A stretch of DNA of 64,000 bases, from assembly GCA_037355855.1 (NCBI GenBank), contig CM074761.1, positions 5,165,346 to 5,229,345 on the forward strand, written 5' to 3'. This DNA comes from Pseudo-nitzschia pungens. Taxonomy: Eukaryota > Bacillariophyta > Bacillariophyceae > Bacillariales > Bacillariaceae. Position numbers and translations under genes: made by a program. Below, piece by piece: positions 43,077 through 63,140 of this stretch. Position 1 is the first letter of the stretch. Every line of letters begins with the position of its first letter. The notes beneath the pieces are model-generated. The model did no database searches. It was given only the letters and a program-made list of their open reading frames with translations, and had not been told where the DNA came from.

Positions 43077-44489
43077 TCAAAAGAATTTTCCGCCCTGCTT
43101 GGAGGAGGCCTCGGACAACCTGGTGAGCGTCTCGAGGACCTCCCCCATGGTCGGTCGACTCGAGATCGATTCCGACCATCCCTTCCGCAGGAGCCTCCGG
43201 ATCGCCACCGGCCACGACCGGGGGATCGTCGGGCGCTCCCCAAAGAGCGAGACCGTCTCCTTGACCTGCGGCCCCAGGAGTCCCTCGTAGGGCTTGGAGA
43301 GGGCCATGATCTCCCACAGCAAAATGGAATAGGAAAAGACGTCCGCCTTGAGGTTGTACGGGTCCTTGCGAATGACCTCCACCGCCATGTACCGGGAGGT
43401 CCCCGTGTTGCCCGCGAGTTTGAAGGTCGTTTCGGGGTCGTCGTGGTGGGGTATCTCCACCGCCAGGCCGAAATCAAAGAGCTTGAGGACGTCCTCCCGG
43501 TCGAATCCAATGTTGGCCGGCTTGAGATCCCGGAACAATATCCGGCGCTCGTGCAGATAGGCCACGGCGGACGCAATGTCGATCGCCGCCCCCAGGCGGA
43601 CCAGAAACAACCGGTTCTTGGCGGCCTGCCGGCCCTTGGTGAGGCTTTTCCGGGAAGCCTCGTCCCCCCTCCACCGGGATATGCGCTTGGACAGGGTGGC
43701 GGCCAGGCGGTCCAGGATCAGAAAAAAGCCGTCGGCGCGGCCGGTGGAGGCGAATCCGGCGATTCCCTCCGCCGCCCAGCCCCGGAGCCGTATGATGTGC
43801 TCGTGGTCAAAGGCCGACAAGAAGTGCGCCTCCATGACGAGGTCCTTGGCGCCGACCACGAGTTTCTTGGGGTTGAAGGCGAGTTTTGGATTGAGGTGCT
43901 TGACGACGAATTGTTCCCGTGGCTCGGTGTGGTTGTTGTGGTTGGCATTTGTATTGTAATTTGTATTGGCATTTGTATTGTAATCGTCGTTGCCATTGTC
44001 ATCGCAATTGTCTTCCGAGTCCTCCGTCAGTGCCGAGTCCACTGTGAATCGCTGTATTCCGTACACGTTCGAAAACCCCCCAAAGGCGATCAATTCACCC
44101 AGCACAAGATCCTCCTTGCGAAACCTCGGAATGGAACCCAGGGTGCAATTGGTCCGGACAAACTTGCTGGATGCCACCACCTGGGACACCCTGGCCTCGG
44201 TTCGTTTCACGAGGCGGTCGGCCAGATCGGGTGCCAGCGCAAAGTCCGTGTCGTCGTCGTCGTCGTCGTCGCTGTTGTAGTTGTTGTTGCTATAGTGGTG
44301 GTTGGGATTGTGATGATGATTGTTGTTGTTGTTGTTGTTGTTGTTGCTGATGCTTCCCAGCGTGTCGATAGTGGCGTGGGTGTCTCGGTCGCAGCTCCTG
44401 TGGAGTTCGTAGGAGGGGTGACGATTGACGCGGCGCCGGCGATGGTTTTGGGCCCCGTTGCTTTCGATCGATTCGTCGGAAGACGCCAT
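43077..44489 (-). CDS. Serine/threonine protein kinase, TKL-like
   Basis: Single exon of 470 residues. A disordered N-terminus has poly-Asn/His and a seven-Asp run (about residues 48-82). The kinase domain starts near residue 128 with the Gly loop GELIAFGGFSNVYG and has the lysine in QFVVKHL, separated by a long Asn-rich insertion. The catalytic loop is ILFRDLKPANIGF, with Phe in place of the His of HRD. The DFG motif is LFDFGLAVEI, and the activation segment ends GTSRYMAVEVI (in place of APE). KADVFSYSILLWEIM is typical of the tyrosine-kinase-like group. All residues needed for catalysis (Lys, the catalytic Asp and the DFG Asp) are present. Substrate unknown, probably cytosolic. Confidence 0.9.
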   Translation of the reverse strand: MASSDESIESNGAQNHRRRRVNRHPSYELHRSCDRDTHATIDTLGSISNNNNNNNNNHHHNPNHHYSNNNYNSDDDDDDDTDFALAPDLADRLVKRTEARVSQVVASSKFVRTNCTLGSIPRFRKEDLVLGELIAFGGFSNVYGIQRFTVDSALTEDSEDNCDDNGNDDYNTNANTNYNTNANHNNHTEPREQFVVKHLNPKLAFNPKKLVVGAKDLVMEAHFLSAFDHEHIIRLRGWAAEGIAGFASTGRADGFFLILDRLAATLSKRISRWRGDEASRKSLTKGRQAAKNRLFLVRLGAAIDIASAVAYLHERRILFRDLKPANIGFDREDVLKLFDFGLAVEIPHHDDPETTFKLAGNTGTSRYMAVEVIRKDPYNLKADVFSYSILLWEIMALSKPYEGLLGPQVKETVSLFGERPTIPRSWPVAIRRLLRKGWSESISSRPTMGEVLETLTRLSEASSKQGGKFF

Positions 44490-45009
44490 TGTTGATTTTT
44501 TGTTTTTGTTTTTGTTTTTGTTGGTGTTTTTGTTGGTGTTTGTGTTGGTGTTGGTGTTTGTGTTGGTGTTTGTGTTGGTGTTTGTGTTTGTCTTTGTGTT
44601 TGTCTTTGTCTTTGTCTTTGTCGTTGTACTTTGTGGCTTGTTTGATTCGATTGTGGATGCATCACTCGTACCGTAAGGTAAGATCTTAAGGTTACCGCAT
44701 GGTTCGTGTCAGTAATTTAAGGTTACTGTGCAACCGAGTAACTTACTTGTACCGGTAAACCTTACCGATACAGATGCGAGACCGTACGGTAATTACGAGC
44801 AGTTGCACGGGAGTTTCGGTGGTTCGCGGAATGGGTTCGCGGGCTTTTTCGTTGGATGCGAGCCATGGAGATTGGCGCTCCGGTAAAGCGTGTGGAGTTG
44901 TAAATGTCCCGTCAGCGTGTGATTATGGTGCATTTTATAGCTATGCCCTTCCAGTAGGATTTGTACCAGATCTACGTACCCCAACTCTTAGCAACCCAAT
45001 ATCATTATA

Positions 45010-45599
45010 AGATGTACAGGATGCTAAGATAAGGACGGAACTGTAGAACTGAAAGGGGGATACTAGACAGGATGCTAGACAGGATACTAAACAGAATGCT
45101 AGGCCCTTCCAGTAGGATTTGTACCGGATCTACATACCCTAACTCTTAACAGCCCTAAATAATAAGATATATTGGATGCTAAGATACAGACAGAACTGAA
45201 GATCTGAAAAGGCGATACTAAACAGGATGCTAGACAGAATGCTAGGCCCTTCCAGTAGGATTAGTACCAGATCTACATACCCCAACTCTTAACAGCCCTA
45301 AATTATAAGATACACAGGGTGCTAAGATAAGGACGGAACTGTAGATCTGAAAAGGCGATACTAAACAGGATGCTAGACAGAATGCTAGGCCCTTCCAGTA
45401 GGATTAGTACCAGATCCACATACCCCAACTCTTAACAGCCCTAAATTATAAGATACACAGGGTTCTAAGATAAGGACGGAACTGTAGATCTGAAAAGGCG
45501 ATACTAAACAGGATGCTAGACAGAATGCTAGGCCCTTCCAGTGGGATTTGTACCAGATCCACATACCCCAACTCTGAGCAGACCTAAATTATAAGATAT
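45010..45599. repeat. 142-bp satellite, left block
   Basis: About four units of 142-159 bp, each starting near GATGCTAAGATAAGGACGG and passing through GATACTAAACAGGATGCTAG and CTAGGCCCTTCCAGTAGG. The last unit is cut at AAGATAT by the inserted transposon. The same unit continues immediately beyond the transposon at 59707. Confidence 0.92.
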
Positions 45600-45623
45600 C
45601 GTCCGAAAACTGTTTCGCGACCC
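45600..45623 (+). repeat. Left terminal inverted repeat of the 14.1-kb transposon
   Basis: 24 bp beginning CGTCCGAAAACTGTTTCGCG, identical to the complement of the right end. Four TCGCGACC- or TCGTGACC-like motifs follow within the next 45 bp (to about 45665). Confidence 0.93.
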
Positions 45624-46010
45624 ATCGTGACCAATCGCGACCCGATCGCGACCGGATCGCGACTTGTCTAAAAAAAATTCAACCCCAATTTTTTATTTCA
45701 CAACCTCTTTTTTATTATTCTCAACTTTTTTCCATTATTCTCAACCACATTTCTCCCTTTTCTCAACTCCCCCAACGAGTCGACGGAAATGTTCTGTTCT
45801 AGACCCTGACATTCAGTCCCTCTTCACACTTTCATTCCATTTTACACATTTGACACACTTGACTCAACACAACAAATAATTTTTAATCCAATTTACTTCA
45901 ATCACACCAAAGTGTTACGTCGTGCCCCTTTGTGAACTTTTTTTTTCAGTGGTGTCACATCACATACCGGTACCCCAGCTAAGAATCGCATCACAAAAAC
46001 ACACACCACC

Positions 46011-49000
46011 ATGCCGAAAGCTTCCTCCGACCCAAGGCACTTTGCCAATGAGCCCAGAATACCCAAGACATTCCATTGTCGCAACTGCATTGCCTCTGGA
46101 AGAAGAAGAAAATCAAAATCCTTCAAGGGATACAAACAAGAATCGAGCCACTTTCACACCTACCGATATGTATCTCAAGGCCTCTCCAGGCATCTCTATT
46201 CCAACAGCGATTGCCGAACTTATTATGTTAAGAACGATCTTATGGATTTTATTTCTTCTGCGAAAGCCGAAGTCACCCTCCCTTTGGTCCGACACACACC
46301 ATCACAGTATGGACTGACAATGACACAGAATGGACCACAAATCCCCCCCTCCCTTGCCGAAACGAACACCGCCGCAACAACTTCTATCCATACCTCACTC
46401 AATCCTCAAGTGATCGCCAATGTATTGATCCCACCCATGGACAGACAGGCAATCGAATCGCATATGGCTGAAAATGAGGAACAAATGAATGCAATCGATT
46501 CCGCTGTTGATGCCTCAGACCATTTTGATGCCAGTTCCGACACCGAAGTATCTGATTCCGAAATCACGAAACGCACCACCATTTCCATAAACGAAAGAGA
46601 GGAAACATTCCGGAATTGCACTCTGTTCCCTCCCCGTCCGGAACTTATTGCTGAAATCAACCTCCTCAACATTATATCACAATACAAGCTACCTCTTTCC
46701 ACTTATCAAACCATTTTCAATTGGGCAAAAGACAGCAACAATCTTCCCGGTTTTGATTTCAAGGTTACACCAACAAGAAAACGTGATGCCATTTTCCAAG
46801 AAATAAAAAAAAATCTTGGCATATCTTCCGAACCAAAATTTGAGCCCAAAATTGTGAATTGGCTTCCCGACAACAAACCCACCCAAATCTACGTCCGCTC
46901 TTTTCTGGATGCTTTGTATTCCCTTCTGTCGAACCCAGATTTAATGATGGAAGAAAATTTGTCATTCCCCAACAGCAACACCCCCTTGTCACCAGAGCAT
47001 TTCCCGGTTCGAACTGATTCCTGTCCCATCAAAGAGTTGCATCACGGATCATGGTGGTCGGATTCCTGGAGATCCCTTTGCATAGAAGAAAATTCTGAAA
47101 TCCTTGTTCCCATCATTTTTTACATGGATGGAATTAGCTTGGATGCGCACGGAAGACTATCACTGACTCCACTCAACATGACCCTAGGCATATTCAACAT
47201 TGAAACCAGGAAAAGGCCGGAAGCATGGACAACAATCTATTTTCATCCTGACTCTGATTTGGAGAGCATTCACCATTCAAGAAAACCATCTCCAAAAGAA
47301 TCAATCCAAAACCTCCATAATGCCCTAGAAGTGGCGCTCCGATCTTTCAAAGAAGCATGTGAGTCCACCCACGAAGGCATCCAATGGGATTTTCTCCCTT
47401 ATGCCGGCCAATTGTGGCAAGTCAAAATGAAATTTGCAATAGCCTATGTCATCGGTGACACCGAACTGCATGATAAATTATGTGGCAAATATGGTTCCCG
47501 GTCGAGTGGTGTACAAAAGCTTTGCCGACACTGTAACTGTTCCACCAAGGACATAAATATTCCATCAGCACAACAAACAGCCTCTCTTTGGGTCCCATCA
47601 GATTTTCATACATTTCCAGACTCAGATGCCACCACCACCAAGGAATATTTCAACAATATTTCTCACCACCAAATCAGAAATGCATTCCACAGTCTCAACT
47701 TTGGTACCAATGTAAACAATATCCACCTAGCCACGCCCGGTGAATGCCTCCACATGCACCAGCTGGGGTGTGCCAAACGAGAGGTTGAATCCCTGGAGCA
47801 ACTGATGAAGGGTTCAATACCATGCCCGTATGCTGATCACCTAAAGACAGGTGTTTCCACAGTAAATACAATTGGGCATGTCTCTCAAAAATATGGAGCC
47901 CTACTGTCAAGGCAGTCGGATCGTGACTTTCCCAGAACTAAATTCAGCTCCAATCTTCTATCTGTCACTAAAAAAGAGGGGCACGATTACAGTGGTATGC
48001 TGATTTCAATTCTTCTAACATTGGTTTCTGAATCCGGCAATGCAGTTTTGAGCGACCCCTCATTTGTGAAGAAACACATTGATGTCATCGAACAAATCAT
48101 CTCAATGGAAGAATTTCTCAAACACGGCCGGCCTACCACAAAGTGCATCAAAAATCTTCCCAAAACCATTATTCATTTCCTCAACTCTATCAATGGCACC
48201 TGCCTTAGGAAGGGAATGGGAACAAAACTGATCAAAAATCACCTCTACTTTCACATTCCAAAGTACATCAGTCTGTGGGGTCCAACATTAGGTTTTGATT
48301 CTGCATACAGTGAAAGTCACCACAAGACAGAAATAAAAGCACCATCCAAAAACACTCAACAAAATGCCGCAACCTTAGTCCATCAGACAACCCGTCGGAA
48401 AGAAGAAGCATCTCTCCTTCGACTCGCAACCTCTCATTACAAGTTGAAGAAAGTGGGTGGTGATCCTAAAGTCATATCCCCTCGTCCTACACAGTCTGGG
48501 TCCCGTTTCACCATTTTTCTGGATGGAACTAGAGGTTCAATGAAATGGGACTTAAGACGAAACTACAACAAACCATTTCATTCAAAAATTGTACTAGATT
48601 TTGTTTGTGACTCCGTCCTTCCTTTGCTGGATGACAGATCCAGCATATTTGGGTTCACCGAACACAACAGATGGGATTCTGTGAATCGCGTCAACTACCT
48701 GTTCCGATGTCACCCCTCATACAGGTCTGATTCAGGCCAAGTTAACAGTGTATGGTTTGACTGGGCAATGTTTGCAGTTGATGACAACACTGAAATCCCC
48801 TGTCAAATGCTGTGTTTTCTGCACGTGAAAGATTTGAAACAACCCACATCGGCTGTGAATGGATACAATGTCGATTCAGATGGCATCTACGCGGTTGTCA
48901 GAAAGTTTAGAGAAGATCCAAGGTCTACATCATCTCACTTTGTAAAAAGTGGCTATCTTGACAATACTTTATATTTATTCAACACTGACACTATTCTTTT

Positions 49001-49202
49001 GGAACTGGCAGTTGTTCCTGAACTGGACGAGAATGCGGAACCAGTAAACAATGGTCGGTGGTTCGTTGTTCACAATCGATTGCAATGGCTCGAATTCTTT
49101 GAAAAGAGGAATAATTCTATGACCTATACTACCTACGAGAGCCTCTACTCCGCTTGCCCTGTACAACGAGAGGAATCAGACAGCACCGGCATTGCTGAAT
49201 GA
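46011..49202 (+). CDS. DDE transposase of the CMC (CACTA/Plavaka) type
   Basis: 1063 residues, uninterrupted. The N-terminus has a probable zinc module: FHCRNC at about residue 24, then QGLSRHLYSNSDC near 62-74, the C2HC arrangement found in Plavaka-like transposases. The catalytic core shows the expected acids: YMDGISLD with Asp at about 373, followed by LTPLNMTLG; VIGDTELHDKLCGKYGS with Asp at about 483, followed by the CRHCNC knuckle; and SAYSESHHKTEIK with Glu at about 768. These fit a DDE triad with a large helical insertion between the second and third acids. The enzyme should bind the element's ends in the nucleus and carry out cut-and-paste movement. Placement as Plavaka/CACTA-like is from motif order; the termini do not begin CACTA. 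No frameshift or internal stop is visible. Confidence 0.85.
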   Translation: MPKASSDPRHFANEPRIPKTFHCRNCIASGRRRKSKSFKGYKQESSHFHTYRYVSQGLSRHLYSNSDCRTYYVKNDLMDFISSAKAEVTLPLVRHTPSQYGLTMTQNGPQIPPSLAETNTAATTSIHTSLNPQVIANVLIPPMDRQAIESHMAENEEQMNAIDSAVDASDHFDASSDTEVSDSEITKRTTISINEREETFRNCTLFPPRPELIAEINLLNIISQYKLPLSTYQTIFNWAKDSNNLPGFDFKVTPTRKRDAIFQEIKKNLGISSEPKFEPKIVNWLPDNKPTQIYVRSFLDALYSLLSNPDLMMEENLSFPNSNTPLSPEHFPVRTDSCPIKELHHGSWWSDSWRSLCIEENSEILVPIIFYMDGISLDAHGRLSLTPLNMTLGIFNIETRKRPEAWTTIYFHPDSDLESIHHSRKPSPKESIQNLHNALEVALRSFKEACESTHEGIQWDFLPYAGQLWQVKMKFAIAYVIGDTELHDKLCGKYGSRSSGVQKLCRHCNCSTKDINIPSAQQTASLWVPSDFHTFPDSDATTTKEYFNNISHHQIRNAFHSLNFGTNVNNIHLATPGECLHMHQLGCAKREVESLEQLMKGSIPCPYADHLKTGVSTVNTIGHVSQKYGALLSRQSDRDFPRTKFSSNLLSVTKKEGHDYSGMLISILLTLVSESGNAVLSDPSFVKKHIDVIEQIISMEEFLKHGRPTTKCIKNLPKTIIHFLNSINGTCLRKGMGTKLIKNHLYFHIPKYISLWGPTLGFDSAYSESHHKTEIKAPSKNTQQNAATLVHQTTRRKEEASLLRLATSHYKLKKVGGDPKVISPRPTQSGSRFTIFLDGTRGSMKWDLRRNYNKPFHSKIVLDFVCDSVLPLLDDRSSIFGFTEHNRWDSVNRVNYLFRCHPSYRSDSGQVNSVWFDWAMFAVDDNTEIPCQMLCFLHVKDLKQPTSAVNGYNVDSDGIYAVVRKFREDPRSTSSHFVKSGYLDNTLYLFNTDTILLELAVVPELDENAEPVNNGRWFVVHNRLQWLEFFEKRNNSMTYTTYESLYSACPVQREESDSTGIAE

Positions 49203-49851
49203 ACCATTCTACACTAGGCAGGTAACTAAACAATAAAAAATCTTTGTATCATTTGCTTCCGGCGTGATTGAAATCGATTGTCTTCGTCGTCATTAAAATC
49301 GTCGTCGCTCTTCGATTGGATTATCTTCGTCGTCATTAAAATCGTCGTTGCTCTTTGCTCCGATAGCCTTTCTCTTCGTCGTCCTTCCTAAAATCGTCGT
49401 TAATCGTTGTTCTTCCTTAAATCATCGTTGCTGTTCGCTCCGATCGACCTCATCGTCGCTCTTTGTTCCGATAGCCTTCCTCTTCGTCGTCCTACCTGAA
49501 ACTGTCGTCCTACCTGAAACCGTCGTCCCACCTGAAACCATTGTCTTCCCTAAAATCGTCGTTCCAATCATCTGCGTCGTCTTCCCTGAAATCGTCGTTG
49601 CTGTTCGCTTCGATCGTATTCGTCCTCCTTAACATCGTCGTTGCTCTTCGTCGTCCTCCCCGAAATCGTCGTTGCTCTTCGCTCCGATAGCCTTCCGCTT
49701 CGTCGTCCTCCCTAAAATCGTCATTCCTCTTCGTCGTCCTCCCCAAAATCGTCGTTCTCCCTGAAATCGTCGTTGCTGTTCGCTTCGATCGTATTTGTCG
49801 TTGTCCTTGAAATCGTTTGGGTTGGGGTTGCACTTCGCTCCGACAGATCGC
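49203..49851. repeat. Degenerate TCGTCG-rich tandem repeat, left of the 719-residue gene
   Basis: From about 49265 the sequence is a run of imperfect units of roughly 30-45 bp built from CCTGAAATCGTCGTTGCTCT and TCGCTCCGATAGCC. A related array lies on the other side of the 719-residue gene. Short Arg/Asp-rich open frames through it are repeat artefacts. Confidence 0.8.
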
Positions 49852-52011
49852 TCATCGAAATCCCCATCCCGAATCTGACTCCCAATCCGAATCCCATCCC
49901 GCACGCAAATCCTTTACCAAATCATCGTCAGCATCTTGCTCATAGAAATCCTGGTCAGACAAATCATCATCAGAATCTGAGCCTAAACCCGCATCCACAA
50001 CCCATTCCTCATCAGAATCTGAACCCGAACCCGCCTCCGCATCAGAATCTGAGCCCGAACCGGCATCGCCATTCTCTCCGGCTTCAGCCTGTGTAAGAGC
50101 AGCAACTGCATCATCAAAGACAACTTGGGCAGCGTCTCTGGCTGCCACAGCTTCATCACGAGCTGCTTGGGTTGCCATTTCTTCCGCCTCTGCCTCGTGC
50201 CTCTCATCCTGAGTGGCATTTTGATTCTCATCGATTTCTATCCAACGGTCCAACGCTGCTTGCCACTCAGCTTGTCTTTGCGTCAGCACTACTTGCGCTG
50301 CCTGCAAATTAACTTCGGCCGCACGTCTTGCTCTTCTGTGCTTGCCCCAATCAAGTAAGCAGAACACAAATGTTTGTGGACCACGACCCCCTCTTCCCAT
50401 TCCGTACTTTCCATAAAATTCAGGATTCTTGGTGGCAAAACCAATCTTATTTTCCAGACTGAAAACGGTACCTTCTTCATCTCTACCAAATTTGTCATAG
50501 TGAACACCGACCGGGTGTTGCACAAGTGTTGTGGAATTAAGGGAACAAAACTGATACAAAATTTCACCAATGTCATTCGAACCGGCACGGGTCATGGCTT
50601 TCTTATGGTTTTTCAACTCTCGCGCAACAGCAAGAGGCACCACATTCAGCACCCCTTCCACTCCTTCAACAACAATGTTGCTCAGCTCTCTCAGAAGTAA
50701 TGCACTGACTATCTTTGACTCTGTGAACGGCCGAAAGAATTTGTATCGCGAAAACAAATCCTTGGGGATTGGCCCGATCTGTCCTCCATACTGAGGGTTG
50801 GAATATGCCCAATGAATCGGACGTCCTCTTCTGTTGATGTAAAACACACGTATTTTATGGCCGTCTGGAATAACGAAGGTTGCATTTCCCTTCCTAGGTG
50901 TAACACTCGGGTTTTCAAGCATCTGGAAGAGGGCTCGAGTTGGTCCTTTGTACACTCCGCTGCTACCCCCGGTGCGACTCCTTTCTATGTGGTTATTCTT
51001 TGTCATTTTCTGGAGTTCCTGAAACAAGGATCCCACATGCTTTTGGTTCATTTGAAGGGCATCGCCTCCATGATAGAACCGAGCCAGTAGCAGGTTTTGT
51101 TTTTGTCCCAATTCAGGTGATTGAGAAAAACTGCCTACGATGATGGTAACATCACATTCTTCCCCACGATCCTTAACCGAAAACACCCTGGAATCTCTGA
51201 GAGATTGCACTGTATACACCGTATTATTGGCAATGGCTTTTGTACATGGAGTACCGTGCACCACAATCAGTTGCACCCGGTATGTTCTCTTTTTATTCGG
51301 ATTGGCAATGTCGGGACACTCGACATCGACCACATTTACCTTTGTTTGTACCACGTCGGAACTGGTAAGTTTGTAGGGTGTAACATCCATTGCTGCAGCT
51401 TCTCTAGCAAGATTGTACCCCACAACAAAATGTTTCACTCCAGCAAGGTTTGGCTCCTTCCCAAATCCATGGCAATCGATTACACTTTCCGAGATGAGGG
51501 GAGTGTCAATCATCACATTGTACTCTGGTAAAACGATGTAACCATCATACCTAAGCTGCACTTGTCTGCTTTCGACTTCGATGAAATAACGGTGGGACCT
51601 CATAACCTCCTGCTTTTGGTTATCAAAAATGCAGCCGTGACAGACCGAAACCTGACTCTGGTTGTTAATCAATGCATTTTTCATCTGTTGGATTCCGTCT
51701 GGCATATTGAAGCTATCACTTGTCCTTTTTTCTATGAGTCTAAAAATAGACCTCAGGCATTTGCTGCATGAAAATTTGTTACACCTTGTGCAAACAATGC
51801 CATCAGAGGTGCGACCACAGTTTCTAGTGCCCTTCTTCCCCCTTGTACTTGCCTGCGTCAACATCGCTATGCAACCCAAATTGCACCGGCATGTATTGTC
51901 CTTGCTCTTCTGCTCGTCCTTTCTCCTGAACCTCTCCTGCCTGATCTGTTTGTTTTCAACAATGTCTGTCCCAATTTTTTTGTTCTTCTTGGAAGATGTG
52001 GATCGTGTCAT
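49852..52011 (-). CDS. Transposon-borne Cys-rich and acidic protein, unknown function
   Basis: 719 residues in one exon, antisense to the transposase. I do not recognise the family. The N-terminus is basic. A Cys-rich region lies at about residues 40-130 (CRCNLGC, NCGRTSDGIVCTRCNK, CSKC, VCHGC), probably a zinc-binding treble of CxC/CxxC pairs. The middle (about 140-560) is globular and beta-rich with no motif I can name. Near 575-650 is a long Ala/Gln/Glu coiled coil (AAEVNLQAAQVVLTQRQAEW onward). The last 70 residues are an acidic Asp/Ser tail with GSGSDSDAEAGSGSDSDEE-type repeats. It is intact and flanked on both sides by matching TCGTCG repeats, so it may have been carried as a unit. A DNA- or chromatin-binding accessory role is inference. 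Confidence 0.75.
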   Translation of the reverse strand: MTRSTSSKKNKKIGTDIVENKQIRQERFRRKDEQKSKDNTCRCNLGCIAMLTQASTRGKKGTRNCGRTSDGIVCTRCNKFSCSKCLRSIFRLIEKRTSDSFNMPDGIQQMKNALINNQSQVSVCHGCIFDNQKQEVMRSHRYFIEVESRQVQLRYDGYIVLPEYNVMIDTPLISESVIDCHGFGKEPNLAGVKHFVVGYNLAREAAAMDVTPYKLTSSDVVQTKVNVVDVECPDIANPNKKRTYRVQLIVVHGTPCTKAIANNTVYTVQSLRDSRVFSVKDRGEECDVTIIVGSFSQSPELGQKQNLLLARFYHGGDALQMNQKHVGSLFQELQKMTKNNHIERSRTGGSSGVYKGPTRALFQMLENPSVTPRKGNATFVIPDGHKIRVFYINRRGRPIHWAYSNPQYGGQIGPIPKDLFSRYKFFRPFTESKIVSALLLRELSNIVVEGVEGVLNVVPLAVARELKNHKKAMTRAGSNDIGEILYQFCSLNSTTLVQHPVGVHYDKFGRDEEGTVFSLENKIGFATKNPEFYGKYGMGRGGRGPQTFVFCLLDWGKHRRARRAAEVNLQAAQVVLTQRQAEWQAALDRWIEIDENQNATQDERHEAEAEEMATQAARDEAVAARDAAQVVFDDAVAALTQAEAGENGDAGSGSDSDAEAGSGSDSDEEWVVDAGLGSDSDDDLSDQDFYEQDADDDLVKDLRAGWDSDWESDSGWGFR

Positions 52012-54278
52012 TGTTTTCGCGCCTATTCGTCGTCCTTGAAATTGTCGTCGCTATTCGTTTCGATCGTTTTGTCGTTGTCCTTGAAATCGTCGTCCTTCTT
52101 TGCTTCGATTGTATTCGTCGTCGTCCCTGAAATCGTCGTTGCTCTTCGCTTCGATTGTATTCGTCGTCGTCCCTGAGATAGTCGGCGCTCTTCGCTTCGA
52201 TTGTATTCGTCGTCGTGGTTGAAATCGTTGTTGCTCTTCGCTTCGATCGTCTTTGTCGTCGTCCCTGAGATAGTCGGCGCTCTTCGCTTCGATCGTCTTT
52301 GTCGTCGTCGTTGAAATCGTCGTTGCTCTTCGGTCCGATCGTTGCTCTGCGTTTCGATCGTGTTCGTTGTCAAGCAGTGGTTAGATGCCAAAAATGTTAG
52401 TACTAGTAATGCGTCTAAATCAAAGATGCATGATACAATACACCTACATCTTAATAGCAGAAAATACGAGAATATTTTTAGGGAACTATGCATACCTTTT
52501 CTGATCGCTCCGGTTATCGTCGTCGGTCCTCTTTGTTCCGATCGTCGTCGTCCCTCTTGCTTCCGATCGTGGTCGTTGTCCCTCTTGCTTTCGATCGTCG
52601 TCGTCCCTATTTGTTTCGTGAATGTAAAAAATAAACAACAGGCGGTTAGTCGTCATCGTCGGCCCGGTTGGCATCGTCGTCTCTCTCTATTCCGAACGGT
52701 ATTCAATTACGGTACCTTTTAGTGTCGTCGTCTTTGTTGCAATCGTCGTTTTTGTTTCGATTGTCGTCTCTCTTAGCTCCGATTGTCGTCGTCGTCTATC
52801 TTCGCTCCGATCTCTCCTGTGTGAATGTACAAAATAAACAAAAGGCGGTTAGTCGTCATTATCGTGTCCCGGTCGTCGTCCTTCTGGATGACGACAATTC
52901 GCTCGTCGTCATCGTCCCTTTCTGCCACGATCGGTATTCAATTACAGTACCTTTTAGTGTCGTTGTTCCGATCGTCGTCGTCGTCCTCTGCAGGTTCGTT
53001 CGCGCGTTGTACTGGTAGATGTCTGGTTAAGCCAGATGACCCAAGGTCTGCAGCCCACCCTATCTTGATAGCAAAAGATAATAGCAAGGATTTCAAGAAT
53101 GGCCAGTTCTATACTTTCTTTGCCATTTGTCTCTCCAAGATGGTACCAGGCGCCTTGTTCCCACTTTAAACTGGTCCGGCCAGAAAATTCCAACACGGAA
53201 ACGAAATCAAAAATTATGACACATCCTGTACGAGGGAGATGTGGGGCGGAAAATAAACACCGCGATAGTTACGTACTTTACAGTAGTCTACGGTACCGGG
53301 TGTACAGACTGCGTGAAAAAATGACATCAGTGTACGTAACTTGCAGTAGGAACTGTACATGCTGATGAGTACAAAAAAACGACTGGTTTGTAGAGTCTTG
53401 TATGCAGGGGATGTGTAGGTTTCCAGTACTGTGTACGCTGTACGTACGGTACTGGTACAAATCTTTTGGCGCGAAGTGGTGGTTGGTTGTCCAGCGTTGG
53501 TATGTATGGTATTAACCTTAGCATCATAATATTGCCCACTGCTGTATGCTGTAATATTATTTGCTAGTAGCATTGTAATAGTGCCCACTGTATGTTGCTA
53601 GCAGTAGGCTGTGATATTATTTGCTAGCATCATAATAATGCCGAACTGTATGTTGCTAGCACTAGGCTGTAATATTATTTGCTAGTAGCATCGTAATAGT
53701 GCCCACCACTGTATGTTGCTAGCACTAGGCTGTAATATTATTTGCTAGCATCATAATAGTGCCCACTGTATGTTGCTAGCACTACTAGTAGGCTGTAATA
53801 TTATTTGCTAGCATCGTAATAGTGCCCACTGTATGTTGCTAGCACTACTAGTAGGCTGTAATATTATTTGCTGGTAGTGACCACTGTATGTTGCTTGCAG
53901 TAGGCTGTACTACAATACATTTTAACACGATGACAACAGAAAGTGGTGGGAGTAACATTGATTTCTTTGCAAACCAACATGTTCCTCCTATTATTATTAT
54001 AACCCCCTAAACAAAACCTTGCCCATGACGCATGACCGACCCTTGACTGTTAGTAGTGCCTATGGACAACGGTTTTTTTTCCGTTTCCAAAACATTCAGT
54101 TCAAACTTGTTTTGTTCCACGGTGAAAAAAAGGATCATATCGTGTTTACATTTTAAACCTTTTGAGATCAATTGTTACGATCAAGCAATTGCCTAATGAA
54201 TTCATGCTTCGGAGCCTTTAAGATGAACAGACATAATTTCCATTTTCATACAGGAGCATCAGTTCACTGTGAAACATC
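52012..54278. other. Repeat arrays between the 719- and 870-residue genes
   Basis: 52030-52370 and 52500-53000 are TCGTCG-type degenerate repeats; within them a GCGGTTAGTCGTCAT segment with AATAAACAA recurs (about 52633 and 52834). 53000-53480 has no clear feature. 53500-53905 is a separate GCTAGCA-rich tandem array. 53906-54278 should hold the promoter of the 870-residue gene. Confidence 0.6.
53505..53905. repeat. GCTAGC/AATATTATTTGC tandem array
   Basis: Six to seven units of about 57-65 bp, each with GCCCACTGTATGTTGCTAGC, then AGGCTGTAATATTATTTGCT and AGCATCATAATAGT. Units differ by small insertions such as ACTAGT and TAGTAG. It lies upstream of the 870-residue gene, inside the transposon. 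Confidence 0.88.
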
Positions 54279-56891
54279 ATGGCAAGGCACAAAAGGAATA
54301 GAGATTCACCATCTCGTCGGTCTGGAAATCCATCTCGGTCCACACGGCGACGAACAACAAATCCTCCGAGAAGATCACCCCGTTCACCCCCCGAACGAAA
54401 CTATCGTGAGGATTCATCTAGCAGTGATGATGGTGCTGAAGCAGTACCTGCTCGTGACCAATATGTACCTCCACCAGTATCGGAGAATGAGGAGGAACTT
54501 GAGCAAGATTCCACCGACACTGAACAACCCCAACAAGAGAATGAGGAGGAAATTGAGCAAGATTCCACCGACACTGAAGAATCTTCTGATGGAGAATCGG
54601 AAAGTGAGAATGAAGACAGTGATTCGGAAAGTGAGAATGAAGACACTGAGGATGAAGACAACGACCAGGAATCGCAACGTGACACCCATCCGCGAATGCC
54701 TGACTTCCCATGGGAAAAAAATGACGAAACAACCAAAACAAATCCTACTCCCGTCGGGGCTAAGGGAGCCGACGATCCCAAAGATAACGAAGGCGAAGAT
54801 GATGAACAAAATAAAATCAGTCCTGTCGTCAGGGCTAAGGGAATCGACGATCCGGCGGATAATGAAGAGAACGCAAAAAATAAAACTAATCCTTCCGTCG
54901 GGGCTAAGGGAACCGACGATCCTGACAATGACCAAGACTGGGTAAGTGAGATAACAAATATCACTTTGCAGGAGGTTCTTCGCCATCCTCCGGCCCAGAC
55001 CAACAATTCTTTCGGGGCTCGCGGTGCCGACGATTTCAGCGAGGACGAAGACAGGGACCGAAACGAAAAGGAAAATAATGACGACGATTTGAGAGATGGG
55101 GGTGGGGAAGACGACGGTCCTAAAGCGAACGAAGACACAAACCGAAACATAGACATCGGGGGTGGGAAAGACGACGGTCCTAGTGGTGTCGACGATTCGA
55201 GCCAAGACGAAGACAAGGACCGAACCGAAAAGAAAGATAATGACGACGATTCGAGCGATGACGAAGACAAGGTCCGAAAGGAAAAGAAAGGTAATCCTCC
55301 CGTCGGGGCCAAGGGCAACGACGACCGCAAAACCAACAATTCTTTCGAGGCTCGTGGTGCCGACAATTCAAGCGAAGACGAAGATTCGAGCGATGACGAA
55401 GACAAGGTCCGAAAGGAAAAGAAAGGTAATCCTCCCGTCGGGGCCAAGGGCAACGACGACCGCAAAACCAACAATTCTTTCGAGGCTCATGGTGCCGACG
55501 ATTCAAGCGAAGACGACGATTCGAGCGAGGACGAAGACAAGGTCCGAAAGGAAAAGAAAGGTAATCCTCCCGTCGGGGCCAAGGGCAACGACGACCGCAA
55601 AACCAACAATTCTTTCGAGGCTCATGGTGCCGACGATTCAAGCAAAGACGACGATTCGAGCGAGGACGAAGACAAGGTCCGAAAGGAAAAGAAAGATAAT
55701 CCTCCCGTCGGGGCCAAGGGCAACGACGACCGCAAAACCAACAATTCTTTCGAGGCTAGTGGTGCCGAGGACGATGATGCCAAAGCCAACCACAGGGGTG
55801 GGGAAGACCACAAGCCTAGAGCGTACGGAGCCACAAACCGAAACAAAGCCATCGGGGCTGTGGAGGACCAAAACCAAACCATCGGGGCTGTGGAGGACGA
55901 CGTTCCTAAAGCGAACGAAGCCACAAACCCAAAAAAAAACAAAAAAATCGACTATGACAATGACCAGGTACGGATTGAACGCAGGCTCGGCCGCAAACAA
56001 AGTACACAGCCAAAAAATGCCAAGAACATGAAAGACAAAGGCGTTAGAGGAAAACTAACAACGGTTGCAAAAAACGTAAAAGAACTTCAGTTTTGCAGCA
56101 CCTATGGAGATAGGAAAAAGCAAAAAGAAAGTCCCGGCTTTATTAACTTTTTGGGTTCCTATGACGACATCATTCCAAGAACAAGTGCTAAATCAAATTT
56201 TGAGTCCGATTGGGACTATCAGAGAAAGAAAGGACCAAAACTCACATTTCTTGTCGATCCCGCGTTTGACCTATATAGAAAAAAAATTGGTGATCAATTA
56301 ATCAGTGCTGGCAATTGGTTTAAGGAGAACAAATGTAAAGAGACAGGACCATATCACACACAAACTGTGGAAGATTATTTCGATAGGAATTTCGGTGATG
56401 CTGCGCCGGCAACAAATGGGAAATTCAAACGTGATGACATCAAGAGTGTGTCCCCCTCTGAAATAGAAAAGTGGACGGAGAAACAGATGGAAGATATCGT
56501 TCAGGAGGAGACTAAAGCTATGACAACAGAAGAAAAAGGGTTGTTCCGACGCTCGGTGAATGCTGTGATGGGCGAGCAGCAACGCTACAAGAAGAAAGGG
56601 AATGGTGCGGTCCGTGAAGGAAAGAAAAATTGTTTTGTAGTCGCCCACGAGAACGTCAACAAGAAAAGAAGGGAGGACGAGAAGGAGAAGAAATTAGCAA
56701 GCCTCAGTAATAGTGTTCAAAACAAGGAACAGGAGACTGAACAAGACGGAGTGAAAAAGAAGAAAAGGAAAAAAAAGGGGAAGAGGATACAGAACTCAAC
56801 ATCCAACCTTCCACCGCATATGAAGAAGCATCCTCCACCAGGTCCACCGAAGCCAGAGAAAAAGCCTCCAGCAGGGGCACAACAGAAGTAG
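54279..56891 (+). CDS. Transposon-borne acidic repeat protein with basic C-terminal domain
   Basis: 870 residues, one exon, unrecognised. It starts basic and Arg/Ser-rich (MARHKRNRDSPSRRSG). A long disordered acidic region follows (about residues 45-540). This contains four copies of a 45-residue repeat with VGAKGNDDRKTNNSFEA and EDEDKVRKEKK, encoded by 135-bp units at about 55290, 55425, 55560 and 55696. The C-terminal third looks folded: LQFCSTYGDRKKQKESPGFI, GPKLTFLVDPAFDLYRKK, GNWFKENKCKETGPYH and helical charged sequence, ending in a Lys-rich tail (KKKKRKKKGKR) that could direct it to the nucleus. It follows the GCTAGC array and precedes the 181-bp array. A partner of the transposase in target or end binding is possible but speculative. 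Confidence 0.75.
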   Translation: MARHKRNRDSPSRRSGNPSRSTRRRTTNPPRRSPRSPPERNYREDSSSSDDGAEAVPARDQYVPPPVSENEEELEQDSTDTEQPQQENEEEIEQDSTDTEESSDGESESENEDSDSESENEDTEDEDNDQESQRDTHPRMPDFPWEKNDETTKTNPTPVGAKGADDPKDNEGEDDEQNKISPVVRAKGIDDPADNEENAKNKTNPSVGAKGTDDPDNDQDWVSEITNITLQEVLRHPPAQTNNSFGARGADDFSEDEDRDRNEKENNDDDLRDGGGEDDGPKANEDTNRNIDIGGGKDDGPSGVDDSSQDEDKDRTEKKDNDDDSSDDEDKVRKEKKGNPPVGAKGNDDRKTNNSFEARGADNSSEDEDSSDDEDKVRKEKKGNPPVGAKGNDDRKTNNSFEAHGADDSSEDDDSSEDEDKVRKEKKGNPPVGAKGNDDRKTNNSFEAHGADDSSKDDDSSEDEDKVRKEKKDNPPVGAKGNDDRKTNNSFEASGAEDDDAKANHRGGEDHKPRAYGATNRNKAIGAVEDQNQTIGAVEDDVPKANEATNPKKNKKIDYDNDQVRIERRLGRKQSTQPKNAKNMKDKGVRGKLTTVAKNVKELQFCSTYGDRKKQKESPGFINFLGSYDDIIPRTSAKSNFESDWDYQRKKGPKLTFLVDPAFDLYRKKIGDQLISAGNWFKENKCKETGPYHTQTVEDYFDRNFGDAAPATNGKFKRDDIKSVSPSEIEKWTEKQMEDIVQEETKAMTTEEKGLFRRSVNAVMGEQQRYKKKGNGAVREGKKNCFVVAHENVNKKRREDEKEKKLASLSNSVQNKEQETEQDGVKKKKRKKKGKRIQNSTSNLPPHMKKHPPPGPPKPEKKPPAGAQQK
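55255..55765 (+). repeat. 135-bp in-frame tandem repeat in the 870-residue gene
   Basis: Near-identical units begin at GGTAATCCTCCCGTCGGGG (about 55290, 55425, 55560 and, as GATAAT, 55696). High identity at silent positions points to recent expansion or gene conversion. Confidence 0.88.
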
Positions 56892-58358
56892 GAGTCTGCA
56901 AAATTTGGTACACCAAAAAAGAAAAGGAAGACAACGGGCGTGTAATGGAATATTATAAAAGATACTATAATGTGATTTGGTAATTTTCTAATAAATTGTG
57001 AATAATTCGTACTTTTTGAATACTTCTTTTTGAATACTTTAAATAATGGTGAGTATATGCATCTATTAGAATACTAAAAGGGTATAAAGTTGCTACCAAT
57101 TATATTTCAGATGTAAGTTCTGATTTCTTAGAGAAATTCTGGGAACACAAAATTACAGCACAGAATGTGCATATTTCTCACCCATGGGTGAAATTGTCCT
57201 AGATTATTTGTGTTCCGCACTGAATAATGGTCAGTATATGCATCTATTAGAATACTAAAAGGGTATAAAGTTGCTACCAATTATATTTCGGATGTAAGTT
57301 CTAATTTCTGAGAGAAATTCTGAGTACACAAAATTACAGCACAGAATGTACATATTTCTCACCCATGGGTGAAATTGTCCTAGATTATTTGTGTTCCGCA
57401 CTGAATAATGGTCAGTATATGCATCTATTAGAATACTAAAAGGGTATAAAGTTGCTACCAATTATATTTCGGATGTAAGTTCTGATTTCTGAGAGAAATT
57501 CTGAGTACACAAAATTACAGCACCGAATGTGCATATTTCCTGTGCATGGGTGAAATTGTCCTAGATTATTTGTGTTCCGCACTGAATAATGGTCAGTATA
57601 TGCATCTATTAGAATGCTAAAAGGGTATAAAGTTGCTACCAATTATATTTCGGATGTAAGTTCTGATTTCTGAGAGAAATTCTGGGTACACAAAATTACA
57701 GCACAGAATGTGCATATTTCCTGTGCATGGGTGAAATTGTCCTAGATTATTTGTGTTCTGTACTGAATAATGGTCAGTATATGCATCTATTAGAATGCTA
57801 AAAGGGTATAAATTTGCTGCAACTTATATTTTGGATGTGACACTTGCTTTGTAAAAAAAATCCTCGGTTGACCAAAATCCACCCCAAAATATGCTTTTTT
57901 CCGGAACGGGCATCATACTGACCAATGTTTTCTTGTCTTAGAGTGTTAAAAATGCATGGATACACAAGTGGCTATGTAAGATAATGGTGATTGTTTGGTT
58001 ACTGGTATGTCCAAGAATATAAAATAGAATAAAGCAGGATGAAAAATCTGACAAAAAAAATAGTAATCTAGCCCATTGGCGAAGAAAAATATAATTCTTG
58101 TGAAGGATTCCATCCTGCCGCATCTGATCCTTGTGACCACAATGCTACCACAGAGACGGTACGATCCTTTTGTTTCAGCCGTGGAAATTGTCATTATATA
58201 TTTGGTTCTATCACTGCCGGTACTACGGTACGTATGCGTAGTAGTTGAACTTCTGCTACTGCTGGTATACTTATGTAGTAGTACTACTACTAGTAATTTT
58301 TACCTACTGTCCCGCAGGGAATAGTAGAGCCAAAAATACAATCAATAGTGAATACCGT
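56892..58358. other. Non-coding transposon segment with 181-bp tandem array
   Basis: Holds the 181-bp array (57047-57840) and, after it, a spacer with a CTACTGC/TACTAC block at 58225-58290. An open frame enters the next gene without an ATG until 58359. Short minus-strand frames inside the array repeat with the unit and are not credible genes. Confidence 0.6.
57047..57840. repeat. 181-bp tandem array in the transposon
   Basis: Just over four units, starting around ATGGTCAGTATATGCATCTA, each with AAGGGTATAAAGTTGCTACC, TTCTGAGAGAAATTCTG and GTCCTAGATTATTTGTGTTC. Successive units are nearly identical except that CTCACCCATGGGTG in the first two alternates with CTGTGCATGGGTG in the next two. The last unit degenerates after 57790. 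Confidence 0.92.
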
Positions 58359-59414
58359 ATGGGTACAGTAGAGAATGAACAGAGATGTGCACAGGTGGAT
58401 AGAAAAAAATTATGGCGCGGGTGGGAATCCTCTAAAACATTTGGCCACGTCACCTACAATTTCCATAGTGAAGTGTATGCCATTACAAGTTGCGTGGATG
58501 GTGAAAGGAAAATGATTAACAGGTTTTTTGTTAGTAGTGAAAAAACTGTGTTCACAATTTTATGGCTTCACATATTTTTTTTACTTCCGACGCCCGAAAA
58601 AATGCCTACCGTATATGATGAGTATCAGCAAATAGAAAAGAAAGCAGATTGCAATGCACCAAGAAAGAATCGAAGTGGAAAAATTGTATCCAATGCTAAT
58701 ACAGGTGAGGATACTACTGCTAGTATTACCCATACGAAATCGAACCCAAAGACAAGTCGAAAACTACCACCCACCTCAGGTGGTGCTGATGAAAAAAATA
58801 AAAGAACCAAGAACAACCCGACCGCGGTTTTGGTTGGTATCACACCACCAACCAACAAACCCACCGCCCCGGGTGTTGTTACACCAAGACCTATTACGAC
58901 CGGTACCAAAATAACACCAAGACCCACATACGAAGCATTGCTACAACAGCTAAAAGAGAGCCAGCAGAAAGTAGCTTCTTTAGAGAGGGATGTGACAACA
59001 CTGCAGAAGGATACAAAAAAAGAAGAACCCACGCTGGAGGCAACTACAACAGGGAAGAAGCCAAAGCCACAGATGGTACGAACCGTAAGTGAAGCAAAAT
59101 TAGAGATAACTAAGGCGCAATCGGATAAACTTAGGAAACATCAAAAAGACGCGGGTTTGGAAGCACAGTTGACACGGCACATAAGAAATAGTTGGTTTCG
59201 TGGCATGAAGTTTATTGTGGATGAGAATAAGGTCAAAAAAATTTTGAAGAAAGCGATTGCGTCCCGAGCTGTCGTTCCACCCCATGGTATTTCATTTGAA
59301 ATTTTTTATGGGTTTAACAGAAGGTTGGTGTACAAGGGTCTTTCAAATCTGCGGCACAATGCTCAAACTTTGGCTAGAAAACATTTTCTCGGTACGTGCT
59401 TACTAAGTGAATAA
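58359..59414 (+). CDS. Transposon-borne protein of unknown function
   Basis: 351 residues from the first ATG of the frame. No family recognised. Around residues 1-90 it looks compact (LWRGWESSKTFGHVTYNF, FTILWLHIFFLLPTPEK). A low-complexity Thr/Pro/Lys linker follows (about 100-200), then a coiled coil (LLQQLKESQQKVASLERDV). A basic, helical end completes it (LTRHIRNSWFRGMKFIVDENKVKKILKKAI and LSNLRHNAQTLARKHFLG, cited as the parts RHIRNSWFRGMKF and ARKHFLG) that could contact DNA. It is the last gene before the right terminus, only 270 bp from the inverted repeat. The 5' end is uncertain: an upstream exon is possible because the frame is open back to about 58240. Confidence 0.55.
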   Translation: MGTVENEQRCAQVDRKKLWRGWESSKTFGHVTYNFHSEVYAITSCVDGERKMINRFFVSSEKTVFTILWLHIFFLLPTPEKMPTVYDEYQQIEKKADCNAPRKNRSGKIVSNANTGEDTTASITHTKSNPKTSRKLPPTSGGADEKNKRTKNNPTAVLVGITPPTNKPTAPGVVTPRPITTGTKITPRPTYEALLQQLKESQQKVASLERDVTTLQKDTKKEEPTLEATTTGKKPKPQMVRTVSEAKLEITKAQSDKLRKHQKDAGLEAQLTRHIRNSWFRGMKFIVDENKVKKILKKAIASRAVVPPHGISFEIFYGFNRRLVYKGLSNLRHNAQTLARKHFLGTCLLSE

Positions 59415-59682
59415 ATTGGTTGATATTACTGCTTGGTTGAGATTGATGGTTATTTTTTTTTTAAATGTTGATTAATTTGATTAAGTGACTGAAGAAAAAA
59501 AAATTGAGTCTTAAAAAAAAATCGGGTCGAGTATGAATTTTATTTTTTTTTTTCGTAATTTTCGTAATTGAGGTAGTTAGGCGGTCGCGATTGGGGTTGC
59601 GAATCGCGAGAGAGCTAGGAATTGAGCTACGTCAAAATGAGCCAGGAATAAATCGCGACCCCCCTAAATAAATTCTTGGGAG

Positions 59683-59706
59683 GGGTCGCGAAACAGTTTT
59701 CGGACG
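59683..59706 (-). repeat. Right terminal inverted repeat of the 14.1-kb transposon
   Basis: Exact 24-bp complement of 45600-45623. Just inside it are further TCGCGA motifs at about 59585, 59605 and 59652, mirroring the subterminal repeats of the left end. Confidence 0.93.
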
Positions 59707-60985
59707 ATATTGGATGCTAAGATACAGACAGAACTGAAGATCTGAAAAGGCGATACTAAACAGGATGCTAGACAGAATGCTAGGCCCTTCCAGCAGGATT
59801 TGTACCAGATCTACACACCCTAACTCTTAACAGCCCTAAATTATAAGATATATTGGATGCAAAGATAAGGACGGAACTGTAGATCTGAAAAGGCGATACT
59901 AAACAGGATGCTAGACAGAATGCTAGGCCCTTCCAGTAGGATTAGTACCAGATCCACATACCCCAACTCTTAACAGCCCTAAATTATAAGATACACAGGG
60001 TTCTAAGATAAGGACGGAACTGTAGATCTGAAAAGGCGATACTAAACAGGATGCTAGACAGAATGCTAGGCCCTTCCAGTGGGATTTGTACCAGATCCAC
60101 ATACCCCAACTCTGAGCAGACCTAAATTATAAGATATATTGGATGCTAAGATACAGACAGAACTGAAGATCTGAAAAGGCGATACTAAACAGGATGCTAG
60201 ACAGAATGCTAGGCCCTTCCAGTAGGATTAGTACCAGATCTACATACCCCAACTCTTAACAGCCCTAAATTATAAGATACACATGGTGCTACTAAGATAA
60301 GGACGGAACTGTAGATCTGAAAAGGCGATACTAAACAGGATGCTAGACAGAATGCTAGGCCCTTCCAGTAGGATTAGTACCAGATCCACATACCCCAACT
60401 CTTAACAGCCCTAAATTATAAGATACACAGGGTTCTAAGATAAGGACGGAACTGTAGATCTGAAAAGGCGATACTAAACAGGATGCTAGACAGAATGCTA
60501 GGCCCTTCCAGTGGGATTTGTACCAGATCCACATACCCCAACTCTGAGCAGACCTAAATTATAAGATATATTGGATGCTAAGATACAGACAGAACTGAAG
60601 ATCTGAAAAGGCGATACTAAACAGGATGCTAGACAGAATGCTAGGCCCTTCCAGTAGGATTAGTACCAGATCCACATACCCCAACTCTTAACAGCCCTAA
60701 ATTATAAGATACACAGGGTGCTAAGATAAGAACGGAACTGTAGATCTGAAAAGGTGATACTAAACAGGATGCTAGACAGAATGCTAGGCCCTTCCAGTGG
60801 GATTTGTACCAGATCTACATACCCCAACTCTTAGCAGACCTAAATTATAAGATATATTGGATGCTAAGATACAGACAGAACTGAAGATCTGAAAAGGCGA
60901 TACTAAACAGGATGCTAGACAGAATGCTAGGCCCTTCCAGTAGGATTAGTACCAGATCTACATACCCCAACTCTTAGCAACAATT
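59707..60985. repeat. 142-bp satellite, right block
   Basis: About nine units of 141-144 bp. Two unit types alternate: one with TTGGATGCTAAGATACAGACAG and one with CACAGGGTTCTAAGATAAGG (each cited in part). Groups of about three units recur as higher-order repeats, for example 59857-60139 closely resembles 60284-60560. It ends near CAACTCTTAGCAAC. Confidence 0.92.
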
Positions 60986-62660: not shown

Positions 62661-62926
62661 TATGCGTCTAATAATTTTTCAGTTTACTACTGAGTTCTAC
62701 GCTAATTTGGACCAGTTGTGCGTCTAAAAAAATTTTAGACGCATAACTCTGTAGAATTGTACACACTTTAGTATATGTTTTAGACGCATAAGTTATGCGT
62801 CTAAAAATTTTTTAGACGCATAGTTATGCGTCTAATATTAGACGCATAGTTATGCGTCTAAAAAAGGTTTTAGACGCATAGTTATGCGTCTAAAAAAGTT
62901 TTTAGACGCATAATTTTAACGTCTAA
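62661..62926. repeat. Cluster of nested palindromes based on TATGCGTCTAAAA
   Basis: Five or more alternating direct and inverted copies of TTATGCGTCTAAAA and TTTTAGACGCATAA with only a few bases between them, so neighbouring copies form perfect hairpins (for example 62718-62746, 62792-62823 and 62821-62850). No open frame. It looks like repeated nesting of short inverted-repeat termini. Confidence 0.9.
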
Positions 62927-63140
62927 TAACAATTTTAACGGTTGTAGTTACGCGTGGTCCTCAAAAATCGCGCAAAAATAAAACCATCGGATGGCCCAGT
63001 TCAAATCTCCCTAGAAGCCTACTATTAAAAACTTTTAATTACCGTTTTTTTTTATTTCCACCTCTTGGACTCTCTCTTCTCCGATTTAAGAGCTACGTTC
63101 TAAAAAGGTCAAGAAAATTTCAAACTTTTTACAACTCCAC
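62927..63140. other. Unique spacer after the palindrome cluster
   Basis: About 210 bp of A/T-rich sequence without a repeat or gene that I recognise. It separates the palindrome cluster from the next satellite block. Confidence 0.4.

Follow-up and report, generated by a model that had tools for sequence, protein, structure and literature searches.

A Plavaka-like transposon family of the diatom Pseudo-nitzschia pungens in which an accessory gene appears to be exchanged together with its flanking tandem arrays

A 64-kb stretch of the genome of Pseudo-nitzschia pungens (contig CM074761.1 of assembly GCA_037355855.1), hereafter called the window, contains a 14.1-kb transposon with a transposase gene (open reading frame ORF1) and three accessory genes (ORF2, ORF3 and gene 4). 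The genome, 66.9 Mb in 28 contigs, was searched for related elements. The element very probably belongs to a large family of cut-and-paste transposons in the Plavaka-like branch of the CACTA/CMC clade, with four genes and with modules passing from one element to another. Taking all the evidence together, we consider the overall account, with a modular Plavaka-like family and an exchanged block made up of ORF2 and the adjoining arrays, probable with room for doubt. Judging from the comparison of copies, ORF2 and its flanking arrays appear to have been exchanged within the family and also with two distant transposase lineages.

The search with ORF1 gave 42 scored matches among 258 candidates. 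Ten further long copies (E1–E10) were fetched and, since they were picked to span the range of ORF2 identity, the proportions among them are not representative. In E2, E3, E8, E9 and E10 the sequence compared stops short of the right end. In ORF1 the synonymous divergence (dS) was 0.04–0.14 over the pairs computed among the 11 copies, and 0.04–0.13 relative to the window copy. In ORF2 the dS relative to the window copy was 0.03 for E5, approximately 0.4 for E1, E2 and E6, 0.8 for E3 and E4, and saturated for E7–E10. Over all pairs it ranged from 0.015 to saturation, and four ORF2 classes were distinguished. The ratio of nonsynonymous to synonymous divergence (dN/dS) was 0.12–0.26 in ORF1; in ORF2 it was 0.18–0.27 between classes where measurable and 0.23–0.53 within classes. 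The ORF2 tree gave full support to all four classes, and each was rejected as a clade on the ORF1 tree (approximately unbiased test, p-AU of 7e-59, 2e-29, 0.001 and 3e-24). ORF1 itself may be recombinant, adding to the conflict between the trees. The location of the change was visible in bins of 300 bp. The identity of E7–E10 to the window copy was 90–99% in ORF1, mostly 44–76% from 3.6 to 12.3 kb, and 95–99% in the putative exon 1 of gene 4, and the borders of the exchanged block were equal at this resolution in four copies on three contigs. In E4 the ORF2 part alone was replaced, with ORF3 remaining 95–99% identical.

The same ORF2 classes were found beside other transposases. A search with the ORF1 of locus L053, in which 68 of 338 candidates were scored, gave a gamma group of four matches (93–100%, query included), a beta group of 19 (66–70%), and a further four at 50%. 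The gamma and beta ORF1 are approximately 56% identical to that of the window, with saturated dS. A long ORF2 match was present within 8 kb of all four gamma transposases and of five of the 19 beta transposases, the ORF2 match at C9:2653693 being also 0.8 kb from an alpha ORF1. The ORF2 dS was 0.15–0.16 between L052 (gamma) and E3/E4, 0.17 between L053 (gamma) and E1/E2/E6, and 0.09–0.12 between L054 (beta) and E7–E10. At the beta locus L056, ORF3 and the next array showed 88–96% DNA identity to E7–E10 in the main pieces, and ORF1 aligned in short pieces only, at 70–74%. The beta exchange thus seems to have carried ORF3 along with ORF2, which the other exchanges apparently did not. The order and strand of the genes were 1+ 2− 3+ 4+ in alpha, 2− 3+ 1+ in beta (three loci) and 3+ 2− 1+ in gamma (three loci). 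A gene-4-like start was located 3′ of ORF1 in L056, the sole beta copy checked. The transposase of L053 runs into the end of another element, and the frame of the beta transposase next to L054 is incomplete. The further group at about 50% identity to the L053 query (C1:4835972, C6:4835358, C1:3247779 and C10:2878621) has open frames of more than 1,100 aa.

The arrays on the two sides of ORF2 fell into two types. The type-A core (AATCGTCGT / TCGTCGTCC) was found in the window copy, E1–E6, L052 and L053, and the type-B core (CCGTCGCTCC / CGTCGCTCCT) in E7–E10, L051 and L054. Array type and ORF2 superclass agreed at 15 of 15 loci, whichever transposase lineage was present; where arrays stood on both sides of ORF2, at 13 loci, the agreement held for each side. 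The array motif is correlated with the superclass of ORF2, not with the transposase. The cores beside ORF2 sit on the strand antisense to it, with a single exception in E5; 2–13 type-A cores on the other strand lie farther off in the window copy and E1–E6, and one stray type-B core was seen in L053. The longer type-B unit had 138 genome matches, and among the 100 places listed 18 of the 20 clusters adjoin an ORF2 match. The two other clusters (C10:2346677-2346842 and C11:1787495-1787572) are candidates for class-B non-autonomous elements.

The type-A unit, with 590 genome matches, also occurred close to element ends. Of 83 exact places listed, the 54 on C1–C6 were compared with 91 listed exact termini; 16 of them lay at most 1.2 kb inside a terminus, compared to a mean of 0.15 and a maximum of three under random placement, a randomisation that ignores clustering. 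The non-autonomous element L055 (5,427 bp, with an AG duplication) has type-A arrays on both sides in inverted orientation, approximately 1.6–2.0 kb from one end and 0.6–0.8 kb from the other, and further arrays as well. Compared with the window copy, it showed no DNA match to the coding parts of ORF1–ORF3, and matched in the ends and the arrays.

The transposase was aligned with 17 relatives, 14 of which were picked because they carry the Plavaka label. D483, C505xxC508 and H744xxxH748 were invariant in all 18 proteins; D373 and E768 were present in 17, the exception, P0121, having a gap and a D at these positions. PF18759 was matched at 1e-3 by 15 of the 18, including the protein of the window, a count to be read with the way in which the 14 relatives were chosen. 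The window transposase group thus shows the motif set D, D, C(2)C, H(3-4)H and E that marks the CMCT clade according to an excerpt of PMC12730594. The same excerpt gives target duplications of 2 bp in PlavakaA and of 2–3 bp in PlavakaB, and the duplication was of 2 bp in 12 of 12 elements here. The fungal Plavaka elements described there also resemble the present element in that some families have extra genes. They differ in their termini, TGT..ACA in PlavakaA and CATCA..TGATG in PlavakaB, neither of which is matched by CGTCC..GGACG; the element is therefore filed in neither subgroup. Four genes and class-specific arrays further set it apart from them, and no TET/JBP match was found in it. The original prediction of a CMC element holds in the wide sense, with a transposase that appears Plavaka-like, the Pfam score falling slightly short as reported below. 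The database search with ORF1 gave 192 relatives. Among the 120 listed, ten bear names pointing to an organism, all of them Pseudo-nitzschia (including P. arenysensis by taxid 697910); the 110 others are nameless, so that the diatom-specific family that had been suggested is not established. No diatom paper, by title, was among the open-licence PMC matches listed for Plavaka.

The two 24-bp ends are identical and inverted (two matches, none in 100 shuffles), as had been predicted along with the AT duplication, and the flanks read AAGATAT / element / ATATTGG. The empty site AAGATATATTGG occurs six times exactly within the window, and the element interrupts the 143-bp satellite in register (45164 to 45593 being 3 × 143), in agreement with the claim that neighbouring units preserve it. 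Eight of the nine TCGCGA occurrences of the element lie at most 400 bp from an end. Across the genome the terminus pattern had 228 forward and 232 reverse matches with up to three mismatches, and its reversed control had none, so the ends are shared by many other sequences. Identical 2-bp flanks were found in all 12 elements with both ends read: AT in the window, TA in E1, CA in E4, TT in E5, AA in E6, GG in E7, AA in L001/2, CA in L006/7, AG in L009/10, TG in L013/14, TA in L029/30 and AG in L055. As the duplications vary in sequence, the ends of the element are fixed at CGTCC..GGACG. The five L-pairs are all the adjacent facing pairs of termini less than 20 kb apart among L001–L030; there are 28 such pairs on C1–C6. 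Two wider pairs (25 and 30 kb), not counted among the 12, also match in their flanks, one of them in flanks identical to those of L013/14. The pairs at C1:4755139-4768214 and C1:5058305-5088324 (13 and 30 kb) have identical 10-bp outer flanks at both ends and form a duplicated block, perhaps with a nested insertion.

The four frames of the window copy, of 1063, 719, 870 and 351 residues, are all open, as predicted. In E1–E10 an open ORF1 was likewise followed by ORF2, on the opposite strand, and then by ORF3 and gene 4. In E6 ORF3 is split into two frames, and in E10 the frame of ORF2 begins late. Several copies therefore share termini, gene order and two-base duplications, and the recurrence of ORF2, ORF3 and gene 4 in ten copies, with ORF2 also beside other transposases, bears out the idea of an accessory system belonging to the family. 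The 351-residue frame probably begins too far upstream. Across copies it is often broken ahead of the start MPTVYDE, which was found in the window copy and in E1–E9, and not in E10. All ten E copies have an open frame of 194–210 residues after the gene-4 frame, and the spacing from the donor GTACGTGC to an AG acceptor is 110–113 bp in each. Splicing in silico joined the two in frame in the nine copies out of nine with the start found, giving products of 493–495 residues in E1–E8 and of 479 residues with a different end in E9. From this we infer that gene 4 is a two-exon gene, with the 351-residue frame as exon 1. The window copy has kept the donor, and has neither the acceptor nor the second frame; the junction at this place is unique in the genome (searched with up to three substitutions). 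A deletion of approximately 1.1 kb has removed the putative exon 2 and part of the right arm, so the element described as apparently intact is not fully so, and it probably relies on other copies for that product. At C4:6301987-6309130, beside an element with a type-B ORF2, three gene-4 matches at an exact spacing of 3,137 bp form a tandem triplication.

ORF2 comprises an N-terminal Cys/His-rich part, a conserved core without an assigned fold, and an acidic variable tail. No DUF1985 or DUF287 match was obtained in Pfam for ORF2 (E up to 1) or for the proteins P0001 and P0002 (E up to 5). Of 53 stretches in IMG/VR that fitted the ORF2 search pattern, none codes for a relative. Searching with the repeat-encoded leader peptide of one ORF2 recovered a minisatellite that is found widely, and was uninformative on ORF2 itself. 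The outside relatives, with the 8000 best candidates scored per search, were three unannotated proteins. One is from Psemu1, a label which we take to mean Pseudo-nitzschia multiseries, and which also has transposase relatives. Among the 62 genome matches to ORF2, the 43 longest were checked against all 42 ORF1 matches and 43 of the 98 ORF3 matches, and 36 proved to have ORF1 or ORF3 nearby. Of the remaining seven, three have a beta or gamma transposase at most 8 kb away, and the accessory genes are thus not confined to places outside such elements. A scored ORF1 lies at most 6 kb from 27 of the 43, on the opposite strand in every case; seen from ORF1, a long ORF2 stands within the same distance of 27 of the 42 matches and is absent there from the other 15. 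The ORF3 of the window has its MARHK start in common with the type-B and beta forms.

A factor and its target would be expected to give such a pairing of superclass and array, seen to the left and right of ORF2 and in different lineages, as in VANC. That ORF2 is a class-specific factor acting on the arrays comes near to an even chance without reaching it; that its role is anti-silencing in particular is more doubtful. We tentatively propose the following model. The transposase would act on the termini of autonomous and non-autonomous copies alike. ORF2 would bind the arrays of its own class and so keep the element expressed or accessible, by anti-silencing or activation, and the exchange would let a successful transposase change its system for escaping silencing. 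Such systems would be portable, the DNA-binding factor ORF2 (once with ORF3) and its target arrays being swapped as a block between long-diverged lineages. Non-autonomous elements would retain the arrays so as to be served in trans. This would be an independent, modular, VANC-like strategy outside plants, a proposal that may well turn out to be wrong.

Several observations weigh against parts of this interpretation. The ORF1 protein of the window matched Pfam Plavaka at 7e-6 with 25.9 bits, 0.4 bits below the curated cut-off of 26.3. ORF2 had weak matches only in Pfam (bMERB 0.023, B-box zinc finger 0.13), and the profile search against PDB gave two non-significant matches (E of 1.9 and 8.8), to zinc-finger chains over the N-terminal part. 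The dN/dS of the L054 ORF2 relative to E7–E10 was 0.47–0.59. In the putative exon 2 of gene 4 it was near 1, on a dS of 0.00–0.05 (E1–E8 and E10) and with the frame open, which may reflect relaxed selection, diversifying selection or an age too young to tell. ORF3 at the gamma loci is just 26–27% identical to that of the window, so ORF2 moved there without it, and 14 of the 19 beta transposases have no long ORF2 within 8 kb (for example C8:3990645, C4:5567382 and C2:6061722). The gene set is therefore not indispensable, and a beta element without the ORF2 cassette may exist. Stray type-A cores, one to five in each, were present upstream of ORF2 in the type-B copies E7–E10 and L051. Of the right-end arrays, outside the exchanged block, those of E2, E4, E5 and E6 contained type-A cores, whereas E1, E3 and E7 had none and E10 had a single core of each kind; in E2, E3 and E8–E10 the right end is incomplete. 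Finally, most of the type-A repeats tested (38 of the 54) stand away from any listed terminus, and non-autonomous copies may share arrays by descent alone.

A serious alternative, if less than probable, is that these are ordinary Plavaka-like transposons whose mosaics arose by ectopic recombination or gene conversion, with the arrays being neutral minisatellites that hitchhike with ORF2. The homologous flanks on either side of the exchanged block permit such recombination, the arrays adjoin ORF2, so that the class agreement may be due to linkage alone, and the arrays at the right end are not diagnostic. Hitchhiking accounts less easily for the finding that each element has the same core to the left and to the right of ORF2, with the two sides changing in concert from one superclass to the other (13 of 13 loci), or for arrays kept in a non-autonomous element without ORF2. 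It is improbable that ORF2 is instead an enzyme that removes or alters silencing marks, comparable to the TET/JBP dioxygenases that some fungal Plavaka elements carry (excerpt of PMC12730594), and not a sequence-specific binder. An H-x-D motif, noticed by reading, stands in the core of the window ORF2 and of P0001 and P0003, P0002 being without that stretch; no Pfam or PDB match to the fold was obtained, and no second conserved histidine was seen at the spacing expected of it.

The three accessory genes could also be captured host genes carried as passive cargo, since large transposons can capture genes and no function is known for these three. This is very unlikely given that 36 of the 43 long ORF2 matches stand beside ORF1 or ORF3, that ORF2 and ORF3 recur in different gene orders, and that one of the three outside relatives comes from a source with transposase relatives. 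We give slightly less weight still to chimeric copies created by the assembly of near-identical repeats. The copies are long and similar and were read from an assembly, not from reads, but wherever both ends were read the flanks differ between copies and carry matching 2-bp duplications, and the same block borders, at 300-bp resolution, recur on three contigs. Very fast evolution of ORF2 under positive selection, as in an arms race and without exchange, has the least to recommend it. The ORF2 protein is indeed far more divergent than ORF1. However, divergence reaches saturation at silent sites as well, the dN/dS being mostly 0.2–0.3 between classes, the ORF2 classes conflict with the ORF1 tree, and the same classes stand beside other transposases; fast evolution in place of exchange was ruled out by the dS values.

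Table 1. Features of the element and of its insertion site, in window coordinates
Feature	Position	Strand	Basis
143-bp satellite array	left flank 45071..45598, resumes at 59707-60976		tandem-repeat scan
2-bp target duplication AT	left copy 45598..45599, right copy 59707-59708		read from flanks
Left terminal inverted repeat, 24 bp	45600..45623	+	match to right end and genome-wide matches
Subterminal TCGCGAC repeats, left	45615..45663	+	similar motifs at right end
ORF1, putative Plavaka-like DDE transposase, 1063 aa	46011..49202	+	Pfam Plavaka 7e-6 and catalytic motifs
Type-A tandem arrays, 3′ side of ORF2	49376..49790		tandem-repeat scan and core count
ORF2, 719 aa	49852..52011	−	opposite strand to transposase
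Type-A tandem arrays, 46/92-bp units and shorter, 5′ side of ORF2	52027..52769		tandem-repeat scan and core count
ORF3, 870 aa	54279..56891	+	charged, internal 45-aa repeats
181-bp tandem array between ORF3 and gene 4	57042..57838		related arrays in E7–E10, L044 and L056
Gene 4, putative exon 1	58602..59391	+	start MPTVYDE and splice donor GTACGTGC at 59392
Junction of ~1.1-kb deletion, break near 59450	59439..59479		comparison with other copies
Right terminal inverted repeat, 24 bp	59683..59706	−	match to left end and genome-wide matches

On the left, the satellite array adjoins a protein kinase gene on the minus strand (window 43080-44708) with long Asn/Thr/Asp-rich stretches. More tandem arrays follow 3′ of the element at 61515-62139 (approximately 100 bp), 62778-62937 (32 bp) and 63247-63938 (143 bp).

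Among known systems, the plant CACTA elements (En/Spm) have the proteins TnpA and TnpD, short terminal repeats, subterminal motif repeats and three-base duplications. The present element resembles them in its short terminal repeats, subterminal motif repeats and second protein beside the transposase, and differs in its two-base duplications, its termini without CACTA, and an ORF2 that is on the opposite strand and apparently exchangeable. Sequence-specific anti-silencing by transposons is best known from Arabidopsis, in which the VANDAL elements belong to the Mutator-like transposase superfamily. As excerpted from PMC5735166 and PMC10398659, VANDAL/VANC resembles the present family in having a conserved transposase gene next to an accessory gene that varies far more, and noncoding tandem arrays that differ between related elements; the targets of VANC often form tandem repeats that vary in this way (excerpt of PMC5735166). 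Here the noncoding arrays varied with the accessory protein in 15 of 15 loci, physical linkage being a confounder. The two systems differ in the superfamily of the transposase and in the DUF1985/DUF287 domains, to which ORF2 showed no match, and here the gene and arrays appear to be exchanged as a block between distant transposase lineages. In the giant repeats of Amoebidium, with gene clusters of up to 50 kb in which many genes encode tyrosine recombinases (excerpt of PMC11244446), a Plavaka transposase likewise stands beside other genes in long protist repeats, whereas no tyrosine recombinase match was found in Pfam among the proteins scanned here. No diatom transposon with anti-silencing was among the open-licence PMC literature matches listed.

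If an unrelated protein and its matching arrays have indeed been swapped between lineages for this purpose, the anti-silencing strategy would be general and modular, and the pairs of factor and array would be ready tests of specificity. Even without a function, the four ORF2 classes beside one transposase are a clean record of module exchange between DNA transposons in one genome.

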